The position numbers were made by a program, and so were the translations under genes. Below the pieces are notes generated by a model, which did no database searches, had not been told where the DNA came from, and worked only from the letters and a program-made list of their open reading frames with translations. A DNA stretch of 64,000 nt from an uncultured Pelagibacteraceae bacterium (GTDB lineage Bacteria > Pseudomonadota > Alphaproteobacteria > Pelagibacterales > Pelagibacteraceae): positions 1 to 64,000 of the forward strand of contig CABZSS010000001.1 of NCBI GenBank assembly GCA_902528375.1, given 5' to 3'. Within the stretch, counting starts at the first letter, position 1; every line of letters begins with the position of its first letter. Shown here in pieces: positions 15,949 through 21,786 of the stretch.

Positions 15949-16818
15949 ATGTTTTCGATAATTATCCCTACATTTAATAATTTAGATTATCTAAAATTAT
16001 GTATTAAAAGCATTCGACAAAATTCAAAATATACACATCAAATAATTCCTCATGTAAATATTGGCGAAGATGGAACATGTGATTTTTTGCTAGGTGAGAA
16101 TATTGATTTTACTTTTACAAAATACAATTCTGGAATTTGTGAAGGAATGAATACAGCATCAAAAAAGTCGAAATTTGAATATATATTATACTCGCATGAC
16201 GACTTTTACTTTTGTCCGGGTTGGGATGAAGTTTTAAAAAATGAAGTTGATGCTATTGGCCACAATAACTTTTATTTATCTGGAGTTATGATGAATAATG
16301 GGCCAATCAGATTTAATGCTGGATCAGATATTAAAAGCTTTGATGAAAATAAAGTTTTAAATGAATACCAAAATTACAATCATTATGATTTTCAGGGATC
16401 GACATGGGCACCGCATCTTTTGCATAGAGACTTATGGGAAAAGGTAGGGGGGTTTAGCGAGGAATTCTTTCCTGGTACTGGTTCAGATCCTGATTTAAAC
16501 ATGAAGTTATGGAAAGAAGGAGTAAGAGTATTTAAAGGAGTTAATAATTGTAAAGTTTATCATTTTGGTTCAATAGTCACACGAAAATATAAAAATCATC
16601 CAACAATTATCACTGAATCAGGCAGCAAAGGTGGAAAAATTTTTCTTTTAAAATGGGGTATAACAATTAAATTTTTTAAAAAATTTTATTTAAGATCTGA
16701 CCAAAAATATGAGGGACCTCTAAATAAACCAGTTAAAAATTTTAACTTTTTTATTAAACTTATGTTATGTAAATTAAATTATATATATCTTAAGTTAACT
16801 AATAATTTAAAAAAATGA
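15949..16818 (+). CDS. Family 2 glycosyltransferase
   Basis: The 289-residue protein has the GT-A nucleotide-binding start FSIIIPTFNNLDYLKLCI and an SHDD metal-binding motif (about residue 83, YSHDDFYF), followed by the acceptor-side segment DPDLNMKLW. GT2 enzymes transfer a sugar from a nucleotide donor. The ATG directly follows the stop of the two-domain glycosyltransferase, and the 3' end overlaps the DUF4422 gene as ATGA. No transmembrane segment is evident. Donor and acceptor cannot be read from the sequence. Confidence 0.88.
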   Translation: MFSIIIPTFNNLDYLKLCIKSIRQNSKYTHQIIPHVNIGEDGTCDFLLGENIDFTFTKYNSGICEGMNTASKKSKFEYILYSHDDFYFCPGWDEVLKNEVDAIGHNNFYLSGVMMNNGPIRFNAGSDIKSFDENKVLNEYQNYNHYDFQGSTWAPHLLHRDLWEKVGGFSEEFFPGTGSDPDLNMKLWKEGVRVFKGVNNCKVYHFGSIVTRKYKNHPTIITESGSKGGKIFLLKWGITIKFFKKFYLRSDQKYEGPLNKPVKNFNFFIKLMLCKLNYIYLKLTNNLKK

Positions 16819-17624
16819 GCGATTTATATATCTACTGCATGACATCAAAAAAATATAATCTTTTTAAATATTTACCATCTAATATAATTCCTTTAGGACT
16901 TGGGGATAATCTTTATCCCAAAGATTTTTTGAATGAAAAAATAGGTATAAATATTTCAAAACATAATAAATATCTCGCAGAAATGACTGGAATATATTGG
17001 GTTTACAAAAACAAAATAAACAAATTTAAAAATGATGATTGGATTGGGTTTTGTCATTATAGAAGATTTTGGCTTGATGATTTTTATAATCAAAATCACA
17101 ATATAAAATCATCCTTGTATTCGAAATTACTTACAGATAATGGAAAATTTAAAATAACTGATGTTATACTTGCCCAGCCAACAAAACTTAAGAGAGAAAC
17201 AATCATGGATCATTTCATCAATAATCATGGTGACAAAATGATTTTTGAAGCAATAAACATTTTAGATGAACAAACTGCGAAAGATTTTAAAAATTATCTT
17301 AATAATAGAGAATTTAGTTGTTGCAACATGTTTATCACAAAGCCGAAAATTCTAATAGATTATTGCGAATTTGTTTTTCCATATTTACTCAAGATACTTA
17401 AATATTGCGAAGATAATAATCTATGTACTGGCAAAAATACCAAGTTACCAGCTTATTTTATTGAGAGATTTACTTCTTTTTGGTTTCATAAAAATGCAAA
17501 TGTTAGTTATTTGTCATATGCTCAATTAAATAATTTTTTTGCTTCTGATTTTTTAAATAAATTTATAAATACATTTAAATTACCTGGAACTTTTATGTTT
17601 TATCCGACAGTTTTAGATATATAG
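16815..17624 (+). CDS. DUF4422 glycosyltransferase-like protein
   Basis: The 269-residue protein has the DUF4422 hallmarks: IGLNISKHNKYLAEMTGIYWVYKN-like segment (residues 53-74, ending in YWVYKN) and WIGFCHYRRFWL (about 80-91). DUF4422 proteins occur in capsule and O-antigen clusters and some are galactofuranosyltransferases or related enzymes; that association is from family knowledge. The gene directly downstream encodes UDP-galactopyranose mutase, the source of UDP-galactofuranose, which fits such a role. Start overlaps the GT2 stop (ATGA). The spacing to glf is eight bases. Confidence 0.78.
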   Translation: MSDLYIYCMTSKKYNLFKYLPSNIIPLGLGDNLYPKDFLNEKIGINISKHNKYLAEMTGIYWVYKNKINKFKNDDWIGFCHYRRFWLDDFYNQNHNIKSSLYSKLLTDNGKFKITDVILAQPTKLKRETIMDHFINNHGDKMIFEAINILDEQTAKDFKNYLNNREFSCCNMFITKPKILIDYCEFVFPYLLKILKYCEDNNLCTGKNTKLPAYFIERFTSFWFHKNANVSYLSYAQLNNFFASDFLNKFINTFKLPGTFMFYPTVLDI

Positions 17625-17632
17625 TATGAGAA

Positions 17633-18760
17633 ATGATTGAATCTGATGTGATTATTGTTGGCGGAGGGCCTGTAGGATGTGTTTTAGCTAATAAGTTATC
17701 AAATGAATTGAATTTAAAATGCTTGATAATTGAAAAAAGAAACCATATTGCTGGGAATTGTTACGATGAATACAATAAAAAAGGACTATTATACCACAAA
17801 TATGGTCCTCATTATTTAAGATTTAAAAATCGAAAGACTCTAAATTATTTATCTAAATTTACAAAATGGATATCTGGAGAATATATAGTCAAATCATATG
17901 TAAATAAAAAATTATACCCTATACCAATTAATCTCGAAACTTTGGAAATGTTTTTTAACAGAAAATTTAATTCAAAAAAAGATGTTTTAGATTTCTTGGA
18001 TAAAAAAAGAATAAAACTAAAAAAAATTAAAAACGCAGAGGATTTTATTCTATCAAAGTTAGGTAAAGAAATTTATGAGAATTTTTATAAAAACTACACG
18101 ATTAAACAATGGGGCATACATCCTAGAAATCTATCTAAAACCATAACGGGAAGACTTCCCATTAGAATAAATCGTAATCCATACTATGTTAAGGAAAAAT
18201 TGAGATTAATGCCCAAAAAAGGTTTTACTGAAATGTTTAAAAAGATGATTAATAATAAAAACATTACAGTTAAATTAAATACTGATTTTAATAAAATTAA
18301 AAAAGATTTACGATATAAGCATTTCCTCATTTATACCGGAGAACCAGATAGGTATTTTAATTATAAGTATGGAAAGTTAAACTGGAGATCTTTAATTTTT
18401 AAATTTAAGAACCATAAAAAGAAACTTTTACAAAAATGTGTTCAATATAATTATCCCAATGATCATAAGTACACCAGAACTGTTGAAATAAAACATGTGA
18501 CTAAGCAAAAAAGCAACTATACAGTGATTTCAAAGGAATACCCAACCAACAAAGGTGATCCTTATTATCCAATAATAAATGATAAGAACTTAAGATTATT
18601 CAAAAAATATGAAAATTTGATGAATAAAGAGGCTAAGAATAATATTTTTTTTGAGGGTAGGTTAGCCAGATACACATATTACAATACCGACGAAGTGATC
18701 GAAAGAGCTCTAGATCTATATTTAAATTTAAAAAAAAAATTCAAAAAGATTAAAAATTAA
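17633..18760 (+). CDS. glf: UDP-galactopyranose mutase
   Basis: Glf interconverts UDP-galactopyranose and UDP-galactofuranose using reduced FAD. The 375-residue protein starts with the dinucleotide-binding motif VIIVGGGPVG (about residues 6-15), then EKRNHIAGNCYDE and KYGPHYLRF, all characteristic of the enzyme, and has the YTIKQWG segment of the active site. Length is normal. It ends the plus-strand glycan operon; its stop codon overlaps that of the convergent GT2 gene in a TTAA palindrome. A role in a galactofuranose-containing polymer is inferred. Confidence 0.92.
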   Translation: MIESDVIIVGGGPVGCVLANKLSNELNLKCLIIEKRNHIAGNCYDEYNKKGLLYHKYGPHYLRFKNRKTLNYLSKFTKWISGEYIVKSYVNKKLYPIPINLETLEMFFNRKFNSKKDVLDFLDKKRIKLKKIKNAEDFILSKLGKEIYENFYKNYTIKQWGIHPRNLSKTITGRLPIRINRNPYYVKEKLRLMPKKGFTEMFKKMINNKNITVKLNTDFNKIKKDLRYKHFLIYTGEPDRYFNYKYGKLNWRSLIFKFKNHKKKLLQKCVQYNYPNDHKYTRTVEIKHVTKQKSNYTVISKEYPTNKGDPYYPIINDKNLRLFKKYENLMNKEAKNNIFFEGRLARYTYYNTDEVIERALDLYLNLKKKFKKIKN

Positions 18761-19620
18761 AAATCTTCAATACGTTTGAATGATTTATTATTATTTATTG
18801 AGTTTATCAAACCATTTAATCTAATTTGGTATTTTGATTTAGTAACTTTATTACCAGAAATAGTATTAAGACAAATCCTAAAGATTATTCTTAATAAAGC
18901 AGGTAAAAACAGGATTAGAGCTGTTAATTTGCCGTATCTTTTTCTATAATAATAAAACTTTGACCAAATGAAATGCCATGAATACAGACTCTTAAGTTTA
19001 CTAAGTTCTTCTTCATTTTTTGTTTCAACAGATGTACCGATATCATGATATACTTTTTGAGAGTTTACTTGGTAAATCTTAAAGTTATTTTTATTTGATC
19101 TAAAACAATAATCAGTTTCTTCAAAATAAAGGAAGAAATTTTCATCAAATCCTCTATTTTTATCAAATACCTCAGAACAAAAAAACATTGCGGATCCACT
19201 TATTGACTCTATCAATCCATATTTTTCATTTATATTCGATTGCTTATGTGATTTCTCACTTACATTTTCAAATCTAGGTCCCAAAGCTCCAAATTTATCA
19301 TTTAATTCTTTTGCTGACTTATAAAAAACACTGATTAATTTATCATCAATTTTCTGCATATCTGGATTTAAAACAAAAAAGTATTTCGTAGTAACATGTC
19401 TCCTTGCTAGATTTATTGCACTTCCATATCCATTATTTTCAGAAAATATTATTTCTATTTTTTTTCCTAGTTTAGAAAGCTCAATTTCAATTGATTTATC
19501 TAAAGAGTTTTCAACTATTATTATTTTAATATTATTTGAAATATCCTTAATTAAATTAATTAATTTCTTTTTACTTTTATGTGAAACTATGACTATTGTA
19601 GTATTATTAGCAAAATTCAT
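18757..19620 (-). CDS. Family 2 glycosyltransferase (rhamnosyltransferase-like)
   Basis: The 287-residue protein has the GT2 N-terminus TIVIVSHKSKKKL, ENNGYGSAINLA (about residue 63) and LNPDM, the DxD-equivalent, then FLYFEETDYCFR, which are typical of WbbL-like rhamnosyltransferases. A basic, hydrophobic C-terminal segment (YGKLTALILFLPALLRIIFRI) may attach it to the membrane. It is convergent with glf and has its own promoter region only 12 bases from the end of the recombinase gene, so it may be read from the recombinase transcript. Donor sugar is unknown. Confidence 0.87.
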   Translation of the reverse strand: MNFANNTTIVIVSHKSKKKLINLIKDISNNIKIIIVENSLDKSIEIELSKLGKKIEIIFSENNGYGSAINLARRHVTTKYFFVLNPDMQKIDDKLISVFYKSAKELNDKFGALGPRFENVSEKSHKQSNINEKYGLIESISGSAMFFCSEVFDKNRGFDENFFLYFEETDYCFRSNKNNFKIYQVNSQKVYHDIGTSVETKNEEELSKLKSLYSWHFIWSKFYYYRKRYGKLTALILFLPALLRIIFRICLNTISGNKVTKSKYQIRLNGLINSINNNKSFKRIEDF

Positions 19621-19632
19621 TATATTTTTCTT

Positions 19633-20586
19633 TTATACCTTTATCTTATTCAGAGCATTATTCTTAAAGATATTTGCTTCTTTAATATATCTTCTTACCA
19701 TTTGAGTTGTTTTATGACCTGTCATAGCCATTATGCTTCTTTCGTCAGCGCCAGATTCAGCAGCTACCGTAGCAAATCCTGATCTTAAGCTATGCCCTGC
19801 AAAGTTTTTATTTTCGATACCTGCTAAATTTAAATATTCTTTCATTAATAAAACTACTGATTGATCTGTTAGTCTTTTATCCAATAATATTGAGCCTTTG
19901 GAAAATCTTCTAAAAATAGGTCCTGTTTTTACTTTTGATATTTCCAACCATTTTTTTAAACTGGTTACAGGGCAATAAGTTTCATTAGTAAAGTAGGGTA
20001 GGCCTTTAATCATTCCTTCTCCAAATTGATCTGTTTTTGATCTTCTAATGGTAATTTTGAGACCTTCAGGAACAAATTCTAAGTCCTCATGATCAATTGA
20101 AATCAACTCAGTTCTTCTAAATCCACCTCCAAACCCTACTAATATAATTGATCTATCTCTTAATTTTTTTATTTCTTCAATTTTTTGTTGATCAATTACA
20201 TTAACTATTGATTTTAAATGATTGATTAATATAGGTTTTTTTCCTTTCTGAAAGCTACCCTTAACCCTTTTTATACCTAATAAATTTTCAGTAATTATTG
20301 GATGTTTTGTATCTAAATAATGCCCTTTTAACTTATGAACCATACTTATTGATACCAATCTTCTTCTTAAAGTGCTTATTTTTGAATTTTTGGATAGATG
20401 AGTTAAGTAAATAGAGACTATCTTTGGCTCTGTTGGTAAAGAATTTAACCCATGTTTAGCGCAAAAAGCTCCAAAGTCTTTAAAATCTGACTTATAAGCT
20501 CTTAATGTATTATTTGCTTTTGAGCTTTTAAGATTATTTAAAGTTGCTTCATGAAGCGATTTAAGATCTGTTGTTAATTTATTCAT
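19633..20586 (-). CDS. Tyrosine recombinase / phage-type integrase
   Basis: From the ATG at 20586 the protein has 317 residues: an N-terminal SAM-like core-binding domain (to about residue 105) and a C-terminal catalytic domain with every active-site residue visible: Arg157 (GGGFRRTEL), Lys184 (RRSKTDQ), His265 and Arg268 (HSLRSG), His291 (TGHKT) and nucleophile Tyr300 (RRYIKEA). It should cut and rejoin DNA at a specific site. A TTG 18 bases upstream is an alternative start. A 13-base inverted repeat lies just upstream. The enzyme is intact, unlike many island-edge integrases; whether it is mobile or housekeeping is open. Confidence 0.92.
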   Translation of the reverse strand: MNKLTTDLKSLHEATLNNLKSSKANNTLRAYKSDFKDFGAFCAKHGLNSLPTEPKIVSIYLTHLSKNSKISTLRRRLVSISMVHKLKGHYLDTKHPIITENLLGIKRVKGSFQKGKKPILINHLKSIVNVIDQQKIEEIKKLRDRSIILVGFGGGFRRTELISIDHEDLEFVPEGLKITIRRSKTDQFGEGMIKGLPYFTNETYCPVTSLKKWLEISKVKTGPIFRRFSKGSILLDKRLTDQSVVLLMKEYLNLAGIENKNFAGHSLRSGFATVAAESGADERSIMAMTGHKTTQMVRRYIKEANIFKNNALNKIKV

Positions 20587-20588
20587 AA

Positions 20589-20621
20589 TTACTATTGATA
20601 ACAATTAATTATCATTAGTAA
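20589..20621. repeat. 13-bp inverted repeat with 7-base spacer, recombination-site-like
   Basis: Arms TTACTATTGATAA (20589-20601) and TTATCATTAGTAA (20609-20621) are inverted copies with one mismatch in 13, around the spacer CAATTAA. The layout (11-13-base arms, 6-8-base spacer, inner ATAA/TTAT ends) is that of crossover sites for tyrosine recombinases such as dif or loxP. It ends three bases from the recombinase ATG, so it could equally be an operator. Chance is less likely than usual because 12 of 13 pairs match, but the DNA is very A+T-rich. Confidence 0.5.
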
Positions 20622-20668
20622 TAATATAAGTCATTTAAGATGTCAAGTAAATAAGTTAATTTGTTTTT

Positions 20669-20833
20669 ATGTTAAAATATATAATTTTAGCTTTAGCTTT
20701 TATTGGAATAGTTTTTTTTGTGCTGTTTAAATTTGAAAAATTGGATAAGCCTGAGAAAAAGAAATCCATATATATTTTTATAGCAGTATTAATATTAAGC
20801 TTAGCTGGAGTTGTTTCATTATTGTACTTTTAG
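20669..20833 (+). CDS. Small two-helix membrane protein, unknown
   Basis: A 54-residue reading frame starts at ATG 20669 with two hydrophobic stretches (residues about 2-20 and 33-54) separated by a charged loop KFEKLDKPEKKKS. The hydrophobic pattern and charged cytoplasmic-type loop are those of a real small membrane protein rather than random A+T-rich DNA. No family recognised. It lies divergent from the recombinase and 62 bases before the structured RNA. No strong Shine-Dalgarno sequence is visible, which lowers confidence. Confidence 0.5.
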   Translation: MLKYIILALAFIGIVFFVLFKFEKLDKPEKKKSIYIFIAVLILSLAGVVSLLYF

Positions 20834-20895
20834 AGTTATTAACGTTATTCACACCTATCCTGTTTAATCGCTTAAAAAGTGATACATTCAACCTA

Positions 20896-21060
20896 AGTAG
20901 TTTGTTATTATGATATGAATTAAGGGGCAACCCTTAACTGGCCGACTGGGGAAAGGCCGAGAGGACCAAGCCCAGGGGGCAGAAAGTCTTACGGAGTAGC
21001 GCTAAAATCGTAGGGCGAAAGGCATGGCGGTAGCGCATACAACGACGTGCCAAAACTACT
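20896..21060 (+). ncRNA. Unrecognised G+C-rich structured RNA
   Basis: Bases 20921-21060 contain 79 G or C of 140 (56%), about double the surroundings, and are not coding. Ends AGTAGTTT (20896-20903) and AAACTACT (21053-21060) pair perfectly as a closing stem. Inside are TTAAGGG-GCAA-CCCTTAA (7 pairs, GNRA loop, 20919-20936 region), GGCC/GGCC, AGGAC/GTCTT, TACG/CGTA and GGCATG/CGTGCC helices. A TACATT hexamer at 20883-20888 could be a -10 element placing the start at the stem. I see no tmRNA, RNase P, SRP or known riboswitch motif. It may act in trans or as a leader of the ogt gene. Confidence 0.8.
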
Positions 21061-21102
21061 GTTCTTTGCACCGTAAAAAGTGCAAGGAAACAGGGGTTTT
21101 TT
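21059..21102 (+). terminator. Intrinsic terminator / possible attenuator before ogt
   Basis: CTTTGCAC (21064-21071) pairs with GTGCAAGG (21080-21087) and an outer helix CTGTT/AACAG extends it (21059-21063 with 21089-21093), followed by GGG and six T. The outer helix shares bases 21059-21060 with the closing stem of the structured RNA, so the two compete slightly. The U-tract ends four bases before the ogt ATG, and the only Shine-Dalgarno-like AAGGA is inside the hairpin. This fits either the 3' end of a stand-alone RNA or an attenuator. Confidence 0.7.
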
Positions 21103-21106
21103 CTTC

Positions 21107-21376
21107 ATGAAAGGTACTAAATTTCAATTACAAGTGTGGAATTATCTTAAAAAGATACCTAAAGGATCTGTAATAACATATAAACAAGTAGCTATGGCTA
21201 TAAATAAGCCAAAATCAGCTCGTGCGGTTGCTAATGCTTGTGCTAAAAACCCTTATGCTCCAAATATACCATGTCATAGGGTTATTAGGTCTGATGGAGG
21301 TCTTGGAGGTTATTCTGGGAGAGGTGGAGTTGCTCAAAAATTGAAATTACTAAGGTCAGAAAAGGTTAATATCTAG
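21107..21376 (+). CDS. Minimal methylated-DNA-protein-cysteine methyltransferase
   Basis: The 89-residue protein is the C-terminal DNA-binding and catalytic domain of Ogt/MGMT only: FQLQVWNYLKKIPKG, TYKQVA, the arginine-finger segment SARAVANACAKNP and the acceptor motif PCHRVIRSDG followed by LGGYSG. The active-site Cys is present, so it is not an alkyltransferase-like (Trp/Ala) protein. It repairs O6-alkylguanine in one suicidal transfer. The usual N-terminal domain is missing. An in-frame GTG at 21080 lies inside the terminator hairpin; I prefer the ATG at 21107. Expression would require read-through of that hairpin or an internal promoter. Confidence 0.85.
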   Translation: MKGTKFQLQVWNYLKKIPKGSVITYKQVAMAINKPKSARAVANACAKNPYAPNIPCHRVIRSDGGLGGYSGRGGVAQKLKLLRSEKVNI

Positions 21377-21786
21377 GCTTTTTTACACTAAAAAACTCAA
21401 TAAAATCAACATTTTTTGTATATTCACGCTATTAGTAGATAAAATTTAAAGATTCAACGATCAGTTGCACCATTTAAAGAGCAATTCTCAAAATAGACCC
21501 CTCTATGGCCGTTTAAATAGCATATTCATTATCTGCATTGCTCTCATATTAAGTAATATCAATATTTTTGGACATCCCCTTTTTTCAATTTTTTATTGCT
21601 TTTAAGCTGCTATTAATGGTTATATTGCTCGTTTTCTTAATTTTTAACTTTTTTTTATTTATATTTAGTAATTTTTTACCTATCTTACTCTATATTTTAT
21701 ATAATTAATAATATCTTATAATATCAACGTTTTACCAGTATATATTAAAGTATTACTTTAATTATTAGTAAACTTTTAAGACCTAT
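21377..21786. other. 410-base gap, no gene recognised
   Basis: This is the longest gap without a recognisable gene. It lies between the convergent ogt-like gene and an EamA transporter gene. It is T-rich and has no credible reading frame. GAGCAAT at 21479-21485 is inverted as ATTGCTC at 21537-21543 and again at 21624-21630. A TTACT...AGTAA dyad lies at 21753-21771. No tRNA, riboswitch or strong terminator was seen. It may be a decayed gene or island scar. Confidence 0.5.

Follow-up and report, generated by a model that had tools for sequence, protein, structure and literature searches.

The DNA analysed here (hereafter referred to as the window) is a stretch of 64,000 nucleotides from a Pelagibacteraceae genome that is 68.5% complete. 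Just upstream of ogt it contains a G+C-rich island: G and C account for 79 of the 140 bases at 20921-21060, versus 28.4% for the window. A scan in 5-base steps showed this to be the G+C-richest 140-base stretch of the window, and the count given in an initial annotation of the locus was correct. The 189 nt at 20914-21102 fold at -72.1 kcal/mol (z-score -4.92), an energy reached by none of 200 shuffled sequences. The downstream neighbour, the DNA-repair gene ogt (21107-21376, forward strand; 89 amino acids; PF01035, E = 1.8e-33; TIGR00589), lies outside the RNA described below. On its other side, the RNA is adjoined by a tyrosine recombinase-like gene (19633-20604, reverse strand; PF00589, E = 8.9e-19), scoring far below the XerC/XerD equivalog cut-offs, and similar genes occupy the same place in loci L007, L055 and L172. 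An ORF of 54 amino acids at 20669-20833 (forward strand) encodes a putative membrane protein and matched nothing in Pfam. The region beside the recombinase (16815-19620), with genes for UDP-galactopyranose mutase (GLF) and a family 2 glycosyl transferase and a further ORF, looks like a surface-polysaccharide region.

Positions 20913-21053 of the forward strand matched the Rfam family RF02035 (IMES-2) in a cmscan search, with a score of 157 bits (E = 3.3e-41; gathering cut-off 54.7 bits), over the full length of the model (positions 1-141 of 141) and with the same consensus secondary structure. The island is thus, with near certainty, a member of this catalogued family of marine RNAs. IMES-2 is an orphan marine RNA, and the IMES RNAs are abundant in sea water and marine metatranscriptomes; both IMES-1 and IMES-2 reportedly originate from a 2009 study of metagenome RNAs. 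The initial annotation had presented the island as an unrecognised RNA, a claim to be abandoned if cmscan against Rfam returned a significant match to a known family, and its novelty is therefore lost. It was right to see a structured small RNA of SAR11, and had itself named the IMES RNAs as a comparison. Among the papers that could be searched, none treated IMES-2 together with Pelagibacter, and none mentioned RF02035 or IMES-1. The term “IMES” is absent from the available portions of the main texts of PMC5069720, PMC2864571, PMC6429828, PMC3840354, PMC12678497 and PMC12286853, and the name “IMES-2” appears in a squid genome paper. The assignment to SAR11 hosts, the upstream promoter element, the loop-loop helix and the 3' hairpin reported below come from this analysis; priority is not claimed for them, nor are the host and the pseudoknot presented as unpublished.

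The structure was examined by comparison with relatives. The 172 core sequences (124 distinct) yielded 36 representatives with less than 95% identity, 35 of which were aligned on the basis of sequence only, with the Rfam helices and the loop-loop helix then written in (alignment A1); the g5 row L125 was left out of A1, and L173, with a core cut by a contig end, had been dropped earlier. In A1, 94.5% of the cells were paired, versus 32-40% for control helices slid along the alignment, and changes on both sides were observed at 26 of the 45 pairs. Double-changed cells numbered 179, versus 51.5 in shuffled alignments (0/500 as high). The covariation that the initial annotation had suggested looking for in SAR11 relatives was therefore found. 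A second alignment (A2), extending A1 by model alignment to two genomes of greater divergence (scores of 68.7 and 62.1 bits), preserved the fold, with the caution that model alignment leans towards structure.

Each consensus helix of IMES-2 showed compensatory changes among relatives, and the proportion of paired cells ranged over 87-100%. P1 (20920-20937, forward strand, as for all the elements that follow) consists of 7 bp (arms 20920-20926 and 20931-20937) closed by a GCAA tetraloop; it corresponds to the 7-bp GNRA hairpin of the initial annotation, is paired in 100% of cells, and has both-side changes at three pairs in A1 and five in A2. P2 (20938-20982) has 11 pairs and encloses an inner hairpin (20955-20966) with a GAGA loop; covariation supports both, with six and three pairs, respectively, changed on both sides in A1. 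P3 (20986-21016), of 8 bp with a 15-nt loop (loop A), was changed on both sides at all eight pairs and was paired in 98.6% of cells (A1). P4 (21021-21051) has nine positions, one of which is never a standard pair, and a 13-nt loop (loop B), with both-side changes at three pairs in A1 and five in A2. The strands of P1, P3 and P4 were free of gaps in 44 sequences. Two of these 44 rows (L030 and L166) lack a single base of the P2 3' strand, and no other tested helix strand was gapped. The RNA folds as P1, P2 with its inner hairpin, P3, P4 and a 3' hairpin (P5) described below.

The printed IMES-2 model, which ends at 21053, draws loops A and B unpaired; comparison with relatives extends this picture by a helix between the loops, a promoter element and the 3' hairpin. 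The loop A strand GCGCUA (20999-21004) is complementary to the loop B strand UAGCGC (21031-21036), and at least five of these six pairs are retained in all 44 distinct sequences, through 10 hexamer combinations. Co-varying combinations (loop A/loop B) include GCACUA/UAGUGC, GUACUA/UAGUAC and UCGCUG/UAGCGA, and the combination GUGCUA/UAGCAA forms five pairs. The exceptions are the first pair (20999-21036), missing in six sequences, the second, broken in two others (L160 and L161), and the sixth, broken in two more (g5 rows). Three of the six pairs were changed on both sides. Considered alone, the helix was paired in 96.2% of A1 cells, with 11 double-changed cells versus 2.3 in shuffles (0/500 as high), and A2, which includes the divergent genus, gave 14 versus 2.7 (0/500). 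Of the five measures computed for this helix alone, two were not above the shuffles: how many pairs had double changes (33/500 as high in A1 and 53/500 in A2) and how many further pair types occurred (307/500 and 338/500). Judged from these sequence comparisons, a helix between loops A and B very probably joins the two 3' hairpins P3 and P4.

The stems of P3 and P4 are nearly equal in length and gap-free, suggesting that the contact lies within one molecule, which we consider likely. Loops A and B are also complementary in trans, and the helix might instead link separate molecules into IMES-2 dimers or chains, in the manner of the ornate RNA-only assemblies; according to the part available of PMC12286853, GOLLD, ROOL and OLE have intermolecular kissing loops. 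Such assembly appears quite unlikely here, given that the fixed, nearly equal lengths of P3 and P4 and their short linker fit side-by-side packing in one molecule, and that loop A does not retain the capacity to pair with itself (down to four of six pairs in 13 of the 44 sequences). With an intramolecular contact, the paired loops would clamp P3 and P4, as neighbours of nearly equal length, side by side. In the purine riboswitch aptamer, pairing between the loops holds two hairpins of similar length next to each other. The likeness is one of architecture only, that of two parallel, loop-paired hairpins: unlike this aptamer, IMES-2 has neither that type of junction nor a constant downstream gene.

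The sequences flanking the core suggest where the transcript begins and ends. An upstream element, AAGTGATA (20877-20884, forward strand), occupies the -35 position, and its pattern is conserved in all 164 distinct loci (171 loci, with seven repeats collapsed): the core G[T/C]GAT was found within the 40 nt searched in 164/164, preceded by A in 159 and by G in five. The distance from this element to helix 1 was 39-42 nt in the 163 loci that could be anchored. A putative -10-like element, TGTTAT (20903-20908, forward strand), was assigned from its position relative to the upstream element; the printed representatives of the relatives have TGATAT, TGTTAA or TGATTT about 17-18 nt after that element. 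The two-part promoter pattern occurs once in the window, with 0.10 occurrences expected. Transcription would run from the RNA's own promoter, AGTGATA followed after about 17-18 nt by a TGATAT-like sequence, and the positions of the promoter elements place its probable start near 20914. A scan for consensus sigma-70 promoters and a scan for terminators each returned nothing at the locus (0 and 0). The promoter would therefore be atypical, and the terminator was probably missed because of a bulge and an extended stem, neither of which is allowed by the pattern used. A promoter shared with the SRP RNA was also considered and rejected: the upstream sequences of nine SRP RNA loci were mostly TTGTAG..TATAAT-like and none contained AGTGATA, which is thus not simply a common small-RNA promoter element. 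The element did not show upstream of three tRNAs in the window.

At the other end, the 3' hairpin P5 (21052-21102, forward strand), identified by folding of representatives, is a probable intrinsic terminator. It comprises 13 pairs with one bulge, extended by five or six A/U-rich pairs, and a T6 tract (21097-21102), with the ATG at 21107, four bases on. The 13 pairs, the T6 and its spacing from the ATG are as in the initial annotation, whose 13-bp terminator has to be amended by the bulge. Folding predicted a 3' hairpin here in 21/21 representatives, although in other genera its sequence is unrelated. The transcript would end at this hairpin and have a predicted length of about 190 nt. The perfect 8-bp closing stem AGTAGTTT/AAACTACT (20896-20903 with 21053-21060) highlighted initially is literally present in the window, yet it can form at the same offset in only 15 of the 164 distinct relatives. 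Its 5' arm lies in the spacer between the two promoter elements, probably upstream of the transcript start. As the stem is not conserved, its proposed competition with the terminator also fails, and a switch between closing stem and terminator was rejected; conserved, mutually exclusive structures, as expected of a leader, are therefore lacking.

The relationship of the RNA to ogt was assessed in 161 loci, three of the 164 being too short for this test. These loci are pattern matches, the best and weakest Rfam matches and hand picks, rather than a random sample; one of them (L172) was missed by the ogt motif test and counted by eye. The gene lies downstream of the RNA in 147/161 loci and does not in 14/161. 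The frequency of this arrangement favours the idea, put forward in the initial annotation, of an attenuating leader, in which the RNA would sense something and control terminator read-through into ogt. In addition, most of the genus loci read by eye have the ogt start immediately after the 3' hairpin, so that an ogt transcript from the RNA promoter must read through it. Nevertheless, a leader would be expected always to precede one particular gene, and the fold and the promoter element persist in all 14 loci with no ogt downstream (all of which are rows in A2), as does the 3' hairpin in the nine of them that were folded. Five of these 14 loci were read: mnmA lies upstream in L128 (tested by family match) and in L132, L163 and L165 (by likeness), and the RNA of L125 is located between SNase and SRAP genes. 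Conversely, ogt is present in 18 of 20 genomes with no match to the RNA; in these 18 non-carrier loci, the 330 bases before ogt, inspected by eye, hold another ORF as far as read, and no IMES-2. Small ORFs lie directly before ogt in several genomes lacking the RNA, and L007 has one between the RNA and ogt. With the switch stem found in so few relatives and the RNA persisting in the absence of a downstream ogt, the leader hypothesis fails on synteny and is most unlikely; we are confident that the RNA is a stand-alone gene.

This gene is present in a single copy in the window's genome. Carriers numbered 30 of 101 relatives, 198 of 399 members of the genus (28/57 at a completeness of at least 90%) and 140 of 297 genomes of the order (75/150), from four of 11 genera, and many of the genus and order genomes are incomplete. 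A class-wide draw contained three carriers among 385 genomes: that of the window and two others from its family. These four samples overlap, and each listed carrier has one match. In a collection of named genomes, an exact pattern retrieved 46 loci, every one of them under a Pelagibacteraceae, Pelagibacterales or Candidatus Pelagibacter title, and one exact pattern gave no match in viral contigs. The Pelagibacterales are mainly marine, consistent with the origin of IMES-2, and the titles of these carriers identify SAR11 as the host group.

A divergent IMES-2 in non-carriers was considered and rejected. A model, R1, found nothing in nine non-carrier ogt loci and gave weak matches in five of 20 non-carrier genomes (best score 17.2 bits). 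Read by eye, the six weak loci resemble coding sequence: L206-L208 together with L211 are alike and rpoA/rplQ-like, and L209 and L210 look like another protein. For four of the six, cmscan detected no RNA at E values up to 0.05. The R1 genome search missed the divergent carrier G439, which the Rfam search does detect, and absence in that genome search therefore means absence of a close copy. When presence and absence were mapped onto an ogt tree (67 rows), four changes were required, at least three of them forced by supported branches, versus 16.1 with shuffled labels; this tree is based on 267 columns, has many weak forks and contains two genomes twice. The tree suggests that the RNA follows clades and has been lost or gained several times. 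No match was found in about half of the genus, though ogt is present in 18 of 20 such genomes, implying that many lineages either do without its role or have replaced it.

Size, an own promoter and an own terminator are typical of an ordinary small RNA, and IMES-2 might regulate mRNAs in trans by base pairing. However, Hfq was detected in none of 30 SAR11 genomes (16 carriers and 14 non-carriers; the incomplete genome of the window was outside this set), versus 5/14 controls, including E. coli and Caulobacter, so that the RNA does not have the setting of an Hfq-dependent small RNA. Moreover, its unpaired stretches are short and conserved, and its two largest loops pair with one another. We consider an antisense role unlikely.

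The 6S RNA architecture is a long rod with a central bubble. IMES-2 resembles 6S RNA in being a small stand-alone RNA of similar length, and differs from it in fold and in the lack of any match to RF00013 in 20600-21400 at E values up to 5. In searches for 6S RNA itself, none of 40 SAR11 genomes (20 carriers and 20 non-carriers; the window's genome was outside this set) gave a match, versus 5/14 controls, again including E. coli and Caulobacter, although the model could overlook a strongly divergent 6S RNA. For Candidatus Pelagibacter ubique, a survey from 2009 (PMC2704228) names the tmRNA, SRP and RNase P RNAs, and the available part of its main text does not contain the term “6S RNA”. This absence would leave room for IMES-2 as a global regulator replacing 6S RNA and binding RNA polymerase. 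We regard such a replacement as very unlikely, because the IMES-2 architecture is not that of 6S RNA and because 6S RNA was not found in the non-carriers either, so that no trade-off between the two is apparent.

Short, conserved unpaired stretches and a clamped pair of hairpins, in a stand-alone transcript of some 190 nt from genomes with no recognisable Hfq, fit a partner-binding RNA, and we infer that this reading suits the data better than an antisense RNA or a leader. The RNA would present a rigid, clamped fold to a partner, as the scaffold of a ribonucleoprotein or as a protein decoy, and would act through partner binding rather than antisense pairing. A protein scaffold or decoy is a reasonable possibility falling just short of an even chance. 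The explanation as a whole, that of a single-copy, stand-alone SAR11 RNA with its own promoter and terminator, a clamped fold and a partner-binding mode of action, is evenly poised between right and wrong. A bolder version, in which IMES-2 would be a SAR11-specific, Hfq-independent ribonucleoprotein RNA or decoy with a kissing-loop clamp, acting as a global regulator and lost or gained several times in the genus, is more doubtful and fairly unlikely. If true, it would reveal a global regulator in ocean bacteria with no recognisable 6S RNA or Hfq. SAR11 bacteria rank among the most abundant cells of the ocean, and, as neither Hfq nor 6S RNA was found in the genomes searched, an RNA regulator of theirs would work unlike the textbook cases. 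Roughly half of the species sampled from the SAR11 genus can now be said to carry IMES-2, in one copy each; this placement, together with the promoter element, the 3' hairpin and the clamp, provides a guide to the carrier cells, the transcript ends and the bases to mutate.

IMES-1 (RF02034) is a sister of IMES-2 in name. Unlike IMES-2, it had no match above the cut-off in 40 SAR11 genomes (the window's genome was outside this set), and it was rejected as a substitute in non-carriers. One sub-threshold match to IMES-1 in a single SAR11 genome (L174; G454:C1:261532-261621) scored 27.4 bits (cut-off 81) and spanned 90 bases, the model having 191 positions. The SRP RNA was found separately in nine of 12 genomes, in five of them above the cut-off; three further carriers had no match, and the scores of the nine loci (L212-L220) were 34-36 bits for four non-carriers and 47-54 bits for the five matching carriers, a gap that probably reflects phylogeny.
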